Source of the DNA: a virus
DNA length: 63,255 bases
Virus record (IMG/VR): IMGVR_UViG_3300009034_000035
Span: 1 to 63,255 of that record
Direction: 5' to 3' (one strand)
The notes beneath the pieces are model-generated. The model saw only the letters and a list, made by a program, of their open reading frames with translations, was not told the origin of the DNA and did no database searches. Shown here piece after piece: positions 7,734 through 63,255 of the stretch. The position numbers were made by a program, and so were the translations under genes. How positions within the stretch are numbered: the stretch's first letter is position 1; every line of letters begins with the position of its first letter.

Positions 7734-7891
7734 TATGTTCTAAATGTGGAGATAAACATCTTAAGTATATAAAGTCCAGGAAGCAGAATTGGAAAGGTAG
7801 AACAGACTATTCAAGTAGACAAAGTTTAGAACCTAGAAAAGATTTTAGAGTTAAGTGTAAAAAATGTGGTTGGGAAGGGGAATTAAAATGA
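7730..7891 (+). CDS. Zinc-ribbon protein, 53 aa
   Basis: CSKCGD at the N-terminus and CKKCGWEG at the C-terminus form a four-Cys ribbon with a basic loop between. This is the TFIIS/zinc-ribbon pattern. Coupled to both neighbours by ATGA overlaps. Confidence 0.6.
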   Translation: MICSKCGDKHLKYIKSRKQNWKGRTDYSSRQSLEPRKDFRVKCKKCGWEGELK

Positions 7892-9979: not shown

Positions 9980-10188
9980 AATGGGTTAAGATGAAAGTAG
10001 ATCTATTTTTTAGACTTAGACAGATAATAGCAGGTTTAGATTGGCTTATAACAGTATATATACCTCTTAGATATAATGGTAGATGGTTCATTACCAAAAC
10101 AACAATTCAAGAAAGAGTAGACTGTTTTATAGCATGTATTGATACAGCTATTAGAGGATATGTATATGGAGTAGAGGAAGAAAAATGA
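9976..10188 (+). CDS. Hypothetical protein, 70 aa
   Basis: Overlaps its neighbours by ATGA. Basic, with aromatic stretches (LDWLITVYIPLRYNGRW) and a helical C-terminus. Not recognised. Confidence 0.45.
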   Translation: MKWVKMKVDLFFRLRQIIAGLDWLITVYIPLRYNGRWFITKTTIQERVDCFIACIDTAIRGYVYGVEEEK

Positions 10189-10421
10189 ATGTAGAAATTA
10201 TAGGAACTATAGGTATTATATTATTATTACTTGGCTATATCTTTTCTAAAAAGAAACTTAGAGCAGCTTATTTAAATTTTTTAGGTGCTATAATTCTTAC
10301 AATTTATGATATTATTTTTAATACTTGGAGTAGATTAGTATTAGACATTTTATGGGCAGTCATTTCTATTAGGAATATTATTTATTATAGAAATTGGGGC
10401 AATGAATTAGACGATGAATAG
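10185..10421 (+). CDS. Three-helix membrane protein, CBU_0592-like
   Basis: 78 residues with hydrophobic spans at about 4-21, 27-45 and 51-66, and short loops; the GYIFSKKKLRAAYLNFLGA turn resembles CBU_0592-like small membrane domains. Function unknown. Confidence 0.5.
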   Translation: MNVEIIGTIGIILLLLGYIFSKKKLRAAYLNFLGAIILTIYDIIFNTWSRLVLDILWAVISIRNIIYYRNWGNELDDE

Positions 10422-10435
10422 AAGAGGAGAAAATA

Positions 10436-11683
10436 ATGTTTATATGCACATTTAAAGGGGAATGTTCTTATAGAATATCGGATAAGGTATGTACATATAA
10501 AAAATCATGTAGTAGTCGAAAAAAAGCGGATGTAGTTCAGAAATGTAGAATATCTAATATCCAGTTAGAAGACGTTGGTGTAAATCCAACCATCCGCACC
10601 AAACTTAATTTATTAAAAGAGTGTATAATTGAGGATATTAATAGATTTTCTAGTACTACAGATGTTAAATCTACAATTAGAGAAGCTTTAGTAAAACGTA
10701 AATGTTGTGGGTTGAAGGATAAAGTTAAAACATTTTTAAATTTTGAAGAAAAATATTTTCATTATTTAGATTTTAGAGATTTACCCTTGAATAAAGTTAA
10801 TTTTGTGTTAAAAAGATGTAAAACAAAAGATGAGAAAGAATTATGGAGATATGTTAGAGTCATTGTAAGTTCAGCACCTTGGACAGGATATGTAGGTAAA
10901 CAGTTAAAATACTTATTAATGGATGAAGATGAAGAAAAAGTATTTGGTATTATAGGATTAGGTTCAGATTTATTAAATTTAAATCCTAGGAATGTATTTT
11001 TAGGTATTAAAAATATGTCTATTCAAGAGAAATTGAAAAGGATAAATTATTTAATGAATATGTTTGTTTGTGTAGGAGTCTATCCATTCAGTTTATTTAC
11101 AGGAGGAAAATTATTGGCTCTTGTTTCTGTTTCTAATAATATAATAGAAGATTATCAAAAGGTATATGATTCTCCTATTTATGGAATAACAACTACTAGT
11201 TTATATGGGAAGTCTATACAATATGACAGATTAAATGATCCTACGACAAATTTAGCAAATTGGAACTATTTGGGGTTAACTGAAGGATTTCAGAGTACAA
11301 TACATTTATCTTCTTCTACAAGAAGATATATTGATGAATTATTTAATGATCTTAATTTATCTTTACCACATAAAAAAATTACACAGACATTTGTTATAAC
11401 ACATAAATTAGGTAAAGTTTCTAGATTTTTAGGGTTAACTGTTAAAGATATATTGTCACCAGGAGGAAATAAAAGAGGAGTTTATTTTTGTTGGTTGATT
11501 AATAATAATCAAATATTAAAATCATTAGAAAATTGTGAACCTAATTATATAGATAGATCATTTGATGATATTATGGATTATTGGAAAAAAAGATGGTTTA
11601 AAAGAAGATGGAAAAAGTATCATAGTAGAAGTAAAGATTTAGGTAATTATAAATTAGAGGAAATTTTAAATGAGGGAAAATAA
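10436..11683 (+). CDS. DUF4338/DruA-like protein with Cys-rich N-terminus
   Basis: 415 residues from an ATG with GAGGAG upstream. Residues ~150-300 match the DUF4338 (Druantia DruA) pattern: GKQLKYLL, an inner strand-helix region, FTGGKLLALVSVS, TTTSLYGKSIQYDRL and NYLGLTEGF. DruA is a component of the Druantia defence system, and lone homologues occur in phages; the biochemical role is not settled. The first ~30 residues are a Cys cluster like the small zinc proteins nearby, and codons ~31-55 coincide with a tRNA-like sequence (10526-10601). The real protein may therefore start downstream, or the ORF may be a fusion created by tRNA insertion. Confidence 0.6.
   Translation: MFICTFKGECSYRISDKVCTYKKSCSSRKKADVVQKCRISNIQLEDVGVNPTIRTKLNLLKECIIEDINRFSSTTDVKSTIREALVKRKCCGLKDKVKTFLNFEEKYFHYLDFRDLPLNKVNFVLKRCKTKDEKELWRYVRVIVSSAPWTGYVGKQLKYLLMDEDEEKVFGIIGLGSDLLNLNPRNVFLGIKNMSIQEKLKRINYLMNMFVCVGVYPFSLFTGGKLLALVSVSNNIIEDYQKVYDSPIYGITTTSLYGKSIQYDRLNDPTTNLANWNYLGLTEGFQSTIHLSSSTRRYIDELFNDLNLSLPHKKITQTFVITHKLGKVSRFLGLTVKDILSPGGNKRGVYFCWLINNNQILKSLENCEPNYIDRSFDDIMDYWKKRWFKRRWKKYHSRSKDLGNYKLEEILNEGK
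10494..10503 (+). promoter_or_regulatory. Possible TATA box for the tRNA-like gene
   Basis: CATATAAAAA lies about 27 bases before the 5' end of the tRNA-like sequence at 10526, the usual distance for archaeal TATA boxes. Confidence 0.35.
10526..10601 (+). tRNA. tRNA-Gly(UCC)-like gene with encoded CCA
   Basis: 76 bases fold into a complete cloverleaf: acceptor GCGGATG/CATCCGC (7/7), D stem GTTC/GAAT (4/4 with one G-U), anticodon stem TCTAA/TTAGA (5/5), T stem GTTGG/CCAAC (5/5), discriminator A and encoded CCA. The anticodon loop TATCCAG reads UCC at positions 34-36, and the GCGG...CCGC-A ends fit glycine tRNAs. Odd points: base 33 is A instead of U, the D loop has T-G where G18-G19 is expected, and the T loop is TGTAAAT instead of TTCAAAT. 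U18-G55 and G19-U56 could still pair. It overlaps the DUF4338-like ORF in sense. Confidence 0.7.
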
Positions 11684-11803
11684 ATGAGTAATGAATTAGT
11701 CTTCCTATCAATAGTATGCCTTTGTATCTTTCTTGGTTTAATACCTAAATTACTTGATTATTATGAAGATAAAAGGAGAAAGAAAAGATGCATTGTTCAT
11801 TAA
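11684..11803 (+). CDS. Small single-span membrane protein
   Basis: 39 residues starting right after the preceding TAA: a hydrophobic helix (VFLSIVCLCIFLGLIP) then a charged, basic tail. Not recognised. Confidence 0.45.
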   Translation: MSNELVFLSIVCLCIFLGLIPKLLDYYEDKRRKKRCIVH

Positions 11804-11871
11804 AAGAACAAGGTCAAGATTGTGAAGAATGTAGTTTATATGGTTATTGTCCAGAAACAAGAGAGGGATAA
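11788..11871 (+). CDS. Tiny Cys-rich protein, 27 aa
   Basis: MHCSLKEQGQDCEECSLYGYC gives four spaced cysteines; AAAGGAG precedes the ATG. Resembles the N-terminal Cys cluster of the 10436 ORF, suggesting a shared small metal-binding fold. Confidence 0.4.
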   Translation: MHCSLKEQGQDCEECSLYGYCPETREG

Positions 11872-11874
11872 TAG

Positions 11875-11988
11875 ATGAAGTTTAAGTGTAAAGTATGTGA
11901 AGATACTGTTGATGAAGAAGTAGAACAGAAGTATAAAATATGTCGAAAGTGTAGACATGGAGATATGATGAAGAGAATATCGTGGTGA
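11875..11988 (+). CDS. Tiny zinc-ribbon protein, 37 aa
   Basis: CKVC and CRKC, about 18 residues apart, form a minimal four-Cys zinc ribbon. Confidence 0.45.
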   Translation: MKFKCKVCEDTVDEEVEQKYKICRKCRHGDMMKRISW

Positions 11989-11992
11989 TTAT

Positions 11993-12103
11993 GTGAAATG
12001 TAGAACTTGCCCAAGATTTGAAGAATGTTGTGCAAACGGAATAGAATTATGTAAAGAAAAACAAAATGAAAAATATGAGAGGTATGGTCAAAGGAACTAT
12101 TGA
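11993..12103 (+). CDS. Tiny Cys-rich protein, 36 aa
   Basis: GTG start; CRTCPRFEECCANGIELC has five cysteines in its first half and a charged second half. Last of four tiny ORFs before terminase. Confidence 0.4.
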   Translation: MKCRTCPRFEECCANGIELCKEKQNEKYERYGQRNY

Positions 12104-12124
12104 AAGACTTGGGGGAAGTAGATA

Positions 12125-13639
12125 ATGAATGAAATACAGGCTCTTAAGATTAAAGTTGTCCATTCTAAGAATATTTATGATATAATAGATTCATGTAAAG
12201 ATTGGAGAAATATACTACTTAGAAGAGCTAAGATCAAATTAAGAAAATATCAATTGCCATTAAGTAATAAGATAATAGAATATACTCTTAGCATGGGAGC
12301 ATTAGGTAATGAAATAATAAGTTTATGGTGTAGACAATCAGGCAAGACAGAAACAGTAGCAGATACTACTTTAGCATTAGGTACTTTCTATTTAATATTT
12401 TTAGAACAAGAATTTAAAGGTGGATTATTTGCCCCAGTAGAAAGTATGATTACTCACGTAACTAGGAATAGATTAAGAGAAAGATATAAATCTCTTAAAG
12501 GATGGCTAAAGCATAAAGCTCATATAAAGCAAATAGCAGGAGAAGGAGTAACATCTAGTTTATTTATATTAGAAAATACTCTTACTAAAAAAGAATTTAA
12601 TGTAAGATCATTATCAGTAGGAGAACAAGCTCAGATTATAGGTCCAACATTTAACTTACTTATTATAGAACAGTCAGAATTAATTAATGCTATGAAGCTT
12701 AAGAATGATGTATTTCCTATGGGAGCAACAACTGGAGGAGTAAGAGTATTAACTGGTACAACATCACCTTACTTTAAGAATGAATACTTTAGGGAAGCAA
12801 TAGAAAGATGGAGTGATGATCCTAAGAAGAATAAAAGTACAGCTAATTATGTAGAACTAGTAAATTGGAAAGAAGCATCCAAATATTCAGTAGCTTACAG
12901 AAGATATGTAGCCAAGGAAAGAACTAGGTTAGGAGAAGATAGTGTAGAGTTTAGAACTCAATATGGATTAGAATGGGTAGGAGCAACACTTAAGTTTATA
13001 GGATGGGAAAAGATAGTTAATCAAGAAGTAGATTATAAGTGGAATAAAGAAAGATTAAGGTTTTTTGGTATAGATGTAGCTAGAGCAGGAGACAGTACAG
13101 TAGTGACAGTAATAGAGGTTAATGGAACAGAAATTCATATACTAGGATGGATGGAAGTAGAAGGTTTAGACTTTGAAATTCAAATACCTAGAATAATATA
13201 TTTTCTTAAGCAATATGCTCCTTTAAGGTTTGGACTAGTAGATAAACCAGGATTAGGAGTAGCTTTATTTGACATGTTAAAGAAAAGATTATGGGATGAA
13301 GTAGAGGATGAGAAGGGCAATATAAAGAAAGAAGCTTGGGCTAGAGTAGATGGTTATTATGGTTCATTAAAAGAAAATGATGAAATGTATAAGGGCATGG
13401 ATAGAGAATTTCAGCATGATAGAGTATTTTTCTCTAAGCATACTAAGTATAAGAGGGAGAAGAGTAGGTTTATAGATCAGATGTTAGATCTAGAACGTAA
13501 GTATACAGGTCATACTCTTAAGCTTTTAGCACCCAAGGTAAAAGGTAGGCATGATGATTATCCAATTTCACTTGCTCTTGCCATATATGCATTTAAGGAA
13601 AAGTCACATAAAACAGGAGTAACTTATGTTGATTTTTAG
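12125..13639 (+). CDS. terL: Terminase large subunit
   Basis: 504 residues. The ATPase has Walker A CRQSGKT (residues 69-75) and a Walker B-like strand NLLIIEQSEL (177-186), which lacks the usual DE pair. The C-terminal RNase H-like nuclease has FGIDVARAGDS (314-324), a central acidic residue in LVDKPG and HDDYPISLALA near the end. It powers DNA packaging through the portal and cuts concatemers. No terminase small subunit was identified; one of the tiny ORFs upstream or the DNA-binding proteins elsewhere could fill that role. It opens the virion module and is preceded by a GGGGGAAG ribosome site. Confidence 0.95.
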   Translation: MNEIQALKIKVVHSKNIYDIIDSCKDWRNILLRRAKIKLRKYQLPLSNKIIEYTLSMGALGNEIISLWCRQSGKTETVADTTLALGTFYLIFLEQEFKGGLFAPVESMITHVTRNRLRERYKSLKGWLKHKAHIKQIAGEGVTSSLFILENTLTKKEFNVRSLSVGEQAQIIGPTFNLLIIEQSELINAMKLKNDVFPMGATTGGVRVLTGTTSPYFKNEYFREAIERWSDDPKKNKSTANYVELVNWKEASKYSVAYRRYVAKERTRLGEDSVEFRTQYGLEWVGATLKFIGWEKIVNQEVDYKWNKERLRFFGIDVARAGDSTVVTVIEVNGTEIHILGWMEVEGLDFEIQIPRIIYFLKQYAPLRFGLVDKPGLGVALFDMLKKRLWDEVEDEKGNIKKEAWARVDGYYGSLKENDEMYKGMDREFQHDRVFFSKHTKYKREKSRFIDQMLDLERKYTGHTLKLLAPKVKGRHDDYPISLALAIYAFKEKSHKTGVTYVDF

Positions 13640-62502: not shown

Positions 62503-62838
62503 GGTTAAACTTTCTATAGGTCAAGAGAACATAATTGTACTTATTGGTATTATACTAAATGGTATAAAGAGTTTAACCAGGCAATATACTAGGTTTATTG
62601 ACAATAGTATACTTGGTTAAACTAAAATGTTAAAAGCATGGTAAACTAATCTAACTACATTACTAGATCTAGTAAACCTTTATTAAGTAGTTTAACTATA
62701 GAATGTAACAGGAGAATAGTACAGGCTATATAATTAACTGGAAAGAATAACTAACCATGTTACTATCAGAGTTAATTATAGATGTTACCTGGCTATTCTA
62801 CCTATAGAAACATAGAGAGTTAAACCGTATGGTTAAAC
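62503..62838. repeat. GGTTAAAC iteron-like cluster
   Basis: GGTTAAAC at 62503-62510, 62615-62622 and 62831-62838, and the reverse GTTTAACC at 62571-62578, with variants GTTAAACC at 62819, GTTTAACT at 62689 and GGTAAAC at 62640. Spacing is irregular. Confidence 0.5.
62570..62623. repeat. Nested perfect inverted repeats (cruciform candidate)
   Basis: Outer arms AGTTTAACCA (62570-62579) and TGGTTAAACT (62614-62623) are perfect 10-base complements; inner arms TATACTA (62585-62591) and TAGTATA (62605-62611) are also perfect. Confidence 0.65.
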
Positions 62839-63255
62839 TAATGATTAAATATATAATACTGCACAGTGTAAAAGTGGAAGTTGAATAGAGGGTGAAATTT
62901 ATGTTTTCTTATATACAGCTCATCTTTTTGAAAAATCTTTAAATATAATGATAATATTTCTATTATTTGAGGAAAAGTTAAATGAAGCCTAAATTTTGTA
63001 TTGGAACAATTAAACAACCAACTAATAGTGATAGTCATGCATGGAGAGGTAAATGGAGTGTAAATTGTGTTAATATGTGGGTAGCTACATTAGGTAAAAG
63101 ATTAAATCTTAAAAATGCAATTTTAGGACATAGTATTATAATGATACATGAAATAACTCATGCATTAAGTGGAGAGTCTTATTGCTGGTCACATATTAAT
63201 GGTAAAATTGTTTATTGGGATGAAACTATAGAAAGAATACTAAAAGAAGTTTTAG
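62767..63255. repeat. Terminal direct repeat, right copy
   Basis: Exact copy of 1-489, ending inside the HExxH gene copy. Confidence 0.95.
62982..63255 (+). CDS. Partial second copy of the HExxH gene
   Basis: First 91 codons plus one base of the gene at 216-524, cut by the end of the window. It is a product of the terminal redundancy and not a second gene. Confidence 0.9.
   Translation, partial: MKPKFCIGTIKQPTNSDSHAWRGKWSVNCVNMWVATLGKRLNLKNAILGHSIIMIHEITHALSGESYCWSHINGKIVYWDETIERILKEVL

Follow-up and report, generated by a model that had tools for sequence, protein, structure and literature searches.

A tRNA-Gly-like gene inside a viral DruA reading frame is a candidate glycyl donor for DruA outside translation

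DruA genes of diverse viruses are genetically linked with tRNA-Gly genes and with mini-tRNA genes, and from the sequence patterns described here we consider it probable that the virus-encoded tRNA-Gly serves the co-encoded DruA as a glycyl donor rather than serving the ribosome. The stretch of DNA analysed as a whole, here called the window, is the 63,255-nucleotide IMG/VR virus record IMGVR_UViG_3300009034_000035, in which one such tRNA lies within the DruA reading frame itself. DruA occurs widely, as a defence protein and in phages, and there are established transferases whose amino acids come from aminoacyl-tRNA. The open-access papers that we searched described neither an activity for DruA nor its pairing with a tRNA or any tRNA partner for it, preprints and subscription literature lying largely outside the scope of that search. 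The linkage provides a directly testable lead, namely glycyl-tRNA as a DruA substrate. If the proposed role is correct, viruses encode private tRNAs for non-translational chemistry, the smallest of them about 63 nt long. This would represent a new use for phage tRNAs as well as a natural minimal substrate for glycyl-tRNA synthetase (GlyRS), and would account for a class of odd phage tRNAs that are missed by standard finders or labelled as protein in GenBank (Mosig_000011).

Run over the whole window, ARAGORN called exactly one tRNA, a tRNA-Gly(UCC) at 10526-10601 on the plus strand. The Rfam tRNA model RF00005 scores this element at 51.9 bits against a cut-off of 29 bits (E = 1.6e-10), and its omission from the whole-window Rfam gathering scan is presumably due to the fast filters used there. 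The cloverleaf folds at -20.4 kcal/mol (z = -3.9), a stability reached by 0 of 200 shuffles, and these lines of evidence, together with the other members of the class described below, identify it as a tRNA-Gly(UCC)-like RNA gene. Its stems of 7, 4, 5 and 5 bp are intact in all 21 pairs and CCA is encoded, so the fold and 3' end are those of an elongator tRNA. Two further elongator hallmarks are missing: U33 is replaced by A33, and the G18-U55/G19-C56 elbow by U18, G55 and U56, with U18-G55 and G19-U56 wobble pairs still possible. The glycine-acceptor identity set is present in the sequence, with A73 as discriminator. An earlier note on this DNA had described the four paired stems, the encoded CCA, A33 and the facing of U18/G19 with G55/U56, and had named ARAGORN and covariance scoring as a check; the description holds throughout, and both methods recover the tRNA.

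The tRNA is embedded in an ORF of 415 aa (10436-11683, plus strand), the product of which comprises a Cys-rich stretch (aa 1-30), a tRNA-encoded stretch (aa 31-56) and a DruA/DUF4338 GNAT domain from about aa 58 on. The DruA family PF14236 matches aa 78-357 (E = 2.7e-25; 89.6 bits against a Pfam cut-off of 27), and similarity to other DruA proteins starts at around aa 58-60, directly after the tRNA-encoded stretch. A Shine-Dalgarno-like AGGAG (10425-10429, plus strand) precedes the ATG at 10436, which is the only usable start before a TTG at 10712; there is no in-frame ATG, GTG or TTG between the two, and initiation at TTG 10712 would remove conserved DruA residues. Given that homology begins right behind the tRNA and that no other start occurs before TTG 10712, the DruA chain is probably translated from ATG 10436 across the tRNA. 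An open frame of 25 codons through a tRNA is unsurprising in itself. The placing of the tRNA in frame with a DUF4338/DruA-like ORF in the earlier note is thus confirmed by the ORF and its PF14236 match, whilst two of the codons it had singled out as rare, GCG and CGC, are explained simply as the acceptor ends of the tRNA. That note named DruA correctly but overlooked the link between DruA and the tRNA.

The link is apparent in a set of 80 viral loci picked by DruA protein sequence alone. ARAGORN found 13 tRNAs in these loci, 12 of them within 1.5 kb of DruA, and all 12 are tRNA-Gly on DruA's strand (9 UCC, 3 ACC); the sole remaining tRNA is a Thr located 4.8 kb off. At a naive 10% share for Gly, the chance of 12/12 is about 1e-12, a figure that is weakened by kinship among the contigs, which are related within each set so that counts are not independent. 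When the loci were searched with R1, a covariance model trained on these RNAs, 20 of the 80 contained a Gly-type tRNA, which lay within 1.3 kb of DruA in 19. Their placement relative to DruA ranges from 13 nt upstream (L376 and L360) or 580-614 nt upstream to 8-22 nt or 1.1 kb downstream, and in L249 the tRNA-Gly sits between two DruA paralogs; such varied layouts point to repeated pairing, not to one inherited neighbourhood. A DruA-picked set from genome contigs includes L360, the odd tRNA-Gly of L359 and a mini-tRNA in L357, and in the first DruA set Gly or Gly-like tRNAs were found in 8 of the 11 contigs with one or two tRNAs, two of the eight (G042 and G043) being irregular. Most DruA loci show no adjacent tRNA, and these may use host or distant viral tRNA-Gly; at the few cellular DruA loci examined, no adjacent tRNA of this type was found.

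Some of these tRNAs have escaped annotation. In the cultured phage HTVC008M, which has two DruA genes, the one tRNA matched by RF00005 is an odd tRNA-Gly(ACC) of 74 nt (KC465899 91140-91213) that is left out of the annotation, and a similar odd tRNA-Gly(ACC) at 7779-7852 in phage Mosig was found only by covariance model. The GenBank hypothetical protein Mosig_000011 (L578, MT647606.1 7774-7869) overlaps the Mosig tRNA and is likely a misannotation. Other DruA-linked tRNAs look canonical (L054, L249, L257, L360 and L376). Contigs with canonical tRNA-Gly(UCC) were considered as a negative control and rejected, the set having contained the DruA-linked L200, L249 and L257 (2/50 records in one check). 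The DruA contigs L166-L168 carry an extreme tRNA-Gly(UCC) with G33, G55 and a D arm apparently reduced to 3 bp. Co-occurrence of two DruA types is frequent (L249, L354, L355 and KC465899); they stand in tandem in L249 and are also found together in contigs binned as a Thermoplasmata archaeon.

Loci of the other branch of DruA contain weak R1 matches, mostly of 62-69 nt, directly behind the DruA stop. These correspond to a mini cloverleaf of 63 nt with a 5-bp acceptor, a 3-bp D arm, a 5-bp anticodon arm (CCC in the loop), a 5-bp T arm, U73 and CCA. Within the mini-tRNA alignment 99.6% of cells are paired and 9 of 18 pairs show two-sided changes, and a dedicated covariance model recovered 17 mini-tRNAs at E <= 1e-15. 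ARAGORN called no tRNA in any of the mini-tRNA loci. A pattern search, derived from DruA loci and itself blind to protein, matched 118 contigs, and DruA was present on the same strand in 78 of the 80 loci examined; DruA lies 20-62 nt upstream of the mini-tRNA in 71 of these and at a distance of 543-762 nt in the other 7. In the two loci where DruA was lacking, the contigs end 10-18 nt before the RNA.

Comparison across the class reveals what selection keeps and what it loses. In the alignment of 25 full-size members 95.8% of cells are paired and two-sided changes occur in 18 of 23 tested pairs, and the elbow pair 19-56 is kept in 23/23 (as GC, AU or GU), as against only 44% for 18-55. G1-C72, C2-G71, G3-C70, C35, C36 and CCA are invariant. 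Position 33 is not U in 5/25 members (A in the window, G in four relatives), position 34 varies between U, A and G, and G55 occurs in 14/25. The discriminator is A73 in the archaeal virus and U73 in the 24 other members, in line with the near-invariant U73 of bacterial and A73 of archaeal tRNA-Gly (PMC6097841). Across the full-size and mini forms, the elements needed on the ribosome (U33, the 18-55 contact, the D arm and anticodon base 34) are eroded and the glycine-charging set is retained. Retention of the identity set with a domain-matched discriminator, alongside loss of decoding parts, is the pattern one would predict for tRNAs that need to be charged by the host GlyRS and need not decode. 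The proposal that this is a functional but special tRNA, for which the earlier note had suggested looking for compensatory stem changes in relatives, is supported by these conserved and co-varying stems.

The altered elbow is not restricted to DruA-linked tRNAs. A search for the odd tRNA-Gly pattern (G55, otherwise Gly-type) matched 40 viral contigs, nearly all of the matches forming full cloverleaves, and the reversed pattern gave 0 matches over the 21 of these records used as a control. DruA is encoded in 11/40, which fall into four lineages (the window virus, L019, the L110 group and L131), and was not found in the other 29, many of them short fragments and the rest large tRNA-array phages. 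The presence of G55 is therefore not diagnostic, and we rejected the elbow change by itself as a signature, given how common G55 tRNA-Gly also is in DruA-less tRNA-array phages. In the tRNA-array phages, G55 also occurs in 41/289 other tRNAs, and the G55 tRNAs of those without DruA form a separate class of elbow-altered phage tRNAs, for which nuclease evasion is possible. Large tRNA-array phages with G55 tRNA-Gly(UCC) include L147-L165, L104-L107, L117, L130 and L134.

An AlphaFold model of the window DruA has a GNAT-like core (mean pLDDT 68, the core being better), and the leading Foldseek PDB matches to this model are GNAT enzymes (top E 9e-4). DruA is thus predicted to have a GNAT fold, and DUF4338 has been assigned to GNAT (PMC10853773). 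The Fem family profile was not matched by the window DruA ORF, PF14236 being its only Pfam match. The window DruA, with its Pfam score above the cut-off, shares its family (DUF4338/PF14236) with DruA of Druantia type I; the genes studied here are stand-alone viral genes. Mom of phage Mu shares the GNAT superfamily with DruA and modifies phage DNA by a glycine-sized unit (PMC7824862). No sequence relation between the two is detectable, Mom matching only PF25680 and DruA PF14236, and the idea that DruA is a Mom homologue was not supported (hhalign probability 1%). One cyanophage DruA record is annotated 'mom'. Cyanophage DruA genes adjoin clamp-loader and polymerase genes, and in L384 (4019-5480) a radical SAM/SPASM gene and a weak match to short-chain dehydrogenases come after DruA and an odd tRNA-Gly, possibly as a biosynthetic cluster. 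The cyanophage neighbours and the radical SAM/SPASM gene make a DNA-directed or multi-step modification plausible, and we take it no further than that.

We infer transcription of the viral tRNA, its charging, its exclusion from the ribosome, glycyl transfer and the nature of the acceptor from the patterns above. The host GlyRS would charge the viral tRNA, since this retains the identity elements at its acceptor end and at C35/C36 together with the discriminator of the right domain. The altered anticodon loop and elbow would then keep it out of elongation, and DruA would act as a transferase of the GNAT fold that moves the glycyl group from the tRNA to an acceptor, for which viral DNA is our first guess. 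With the tRNA inside the DruA frame, a given window transcript would either be cut, releasing the tRNA, or be translated through. Much more tentatively, this may be general: DruA enzymes could be transferases that rely on glycyl-tRNA to attach glycine to viral DNA or some other viral molecule, drawing on private tRNAs evolved by their viruses, down to the 63-nt minis, which host GlyRS would charge but which would never enter the ribosome. We know of no counterpart to DruA, viral setting and linked mini-tRNA as a system, although in principle it resembles the staphylococcal cell-wall tRNA-Gly. In Staphylococcus aureus a non-proteinogenic tRNA-Gly, in which G18G19 is substituted and which is predicted to bind EF-Tu weakly, is charged and feeds the non-ribosomal transferases FemX/A/B (PMC4052509), and it is by analogy with this that we propose a host-charged glycine feed to DruA, charging and transfer being presumed in our case. 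The staphylococcal system differs in its cell-wall peptide acceptor and its Fem enzymes, is not viral and has no 63-nt minis; the window tRNA, unlike its G18G19-altered counterpart, keeps G19 and is changed at 18, 33, 55 and 56.

Several other explanations need to be weighed against a glycyl donor for DruA. The viral tRNA-Gly might aid translation, its loops having changed so that a nuclease of the host that cuts tRNA, or a toxin that modifies it, no longer acts on it. In keeping with this, G55 tRNAs of Gly and other isotypes occur in large DruA-less tRNA-array phages, such arrays being presumably for translation, of many isotypes and not DruA-linked, and agents that would exert the pressure exist: the toxin FaRel2 is reported to hit tRNA-Gly (PMC11559606), and GNAT toxins are reported to acetylate glycyl-tRNA (PMC9241777). 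We nonetheless regard escape as unlikely for the DruA-linked tRNAs in view of the repeated loss of U33, the ACC anticodons, the 63-nt minis without a normal anticodon loop, the near-exclusive Gly identity beside DruA and the absence of any other tRNA from the window. For the same reasons, DruA adjacency and loss of U33 and 18-55 included, the GGA-reading and nuclease-resistance roles suggested in the earlier note are not the best fit. It is similarly doubtful that DruA attacks glycyl-tRNA, for example by acylation, with the viral tRNA acting as a resistant replacement, decoy or antidote. The predicted GNAT fold, the reported precedent of GNAT toxins acting on glycyl-tRNA (PMC9241777) and a tight linkage resembling a toxin-antidote layout would suit this reading, but the decay of U33 and the elbow is at odds with a replacement, which would have to function in translation, and the invariance of the full set of GlyRS identity elements is at odds with a decoy, which could do without it.

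A cis-acting role, in which a tRNA-like element of the DruA mRNA governs processing, stability or feedback through DruA binding, is in our judgement improbable: the element often occupies an untranslated region of DruA, either 5' (13 nt before the gene) or 3' (8-62 nt after it), and in the window it lies inside the DruA frame, but it is also found 0.5-1.1 kb away with genes between, and the invariant CCA and GlyRS identity would be unneeded. That the window tRNA is a relic caught in an ORF by chance, from an old integration site or a captured gene, is very hard to credit, even though an open frame across a tRNA is not improbable and the exact locus is known from one sequence only (L001 being identical there), because all 21 pairs are intact and the DruA-tRNA pairing recurs in unrelated viruses.

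Judging from its genes, the window contig (GC 30%) is a tailed archaeal virus. It encodes archaeal-type LonB, RadA, Hef/XPF, AAA and topoisomerase VI A-like proteins, as seen in a Pfam scan of part of its ORFs, and a family B polymerase with best matches to haloviruses. An exact 489-base direct terminal repeat (1-489 and 62767-63255) makes it probable that the contig represents the whole genome, about 62.8 kb in length and either circular or terminally redundant. The tRNA, DruA and small ORFs make up an accessory block (10414-12124, plus strand) next to the terminase large subunit gene (12125-13639, plus strand; assigned by tblastn to phage terminases, with relatives L004-L011). Pairwise alignment with the closest relative, L011, shows that this whole block is missing there, the gene at 10185 abutting the terminase. 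DruA and the odd tRNA were not found in any terminase-relative locus examined, and the same slot holds DNA methylases (cytosine-C5 or N6/N4) in two other relatives (L007 7143-7997 and L008 280-1104), so that elsewhere it carries DNA-modification genes. The otherwise identical L001 (IMGVR 3300009034_002409) is without 152 bases of the terminase gene (window 12501-12652), reflecting either an assembly gap or a frame-breaking deletion, and a tRNA-Leu(UAA) is present in another relative of the window virus (L010 2114-2201).
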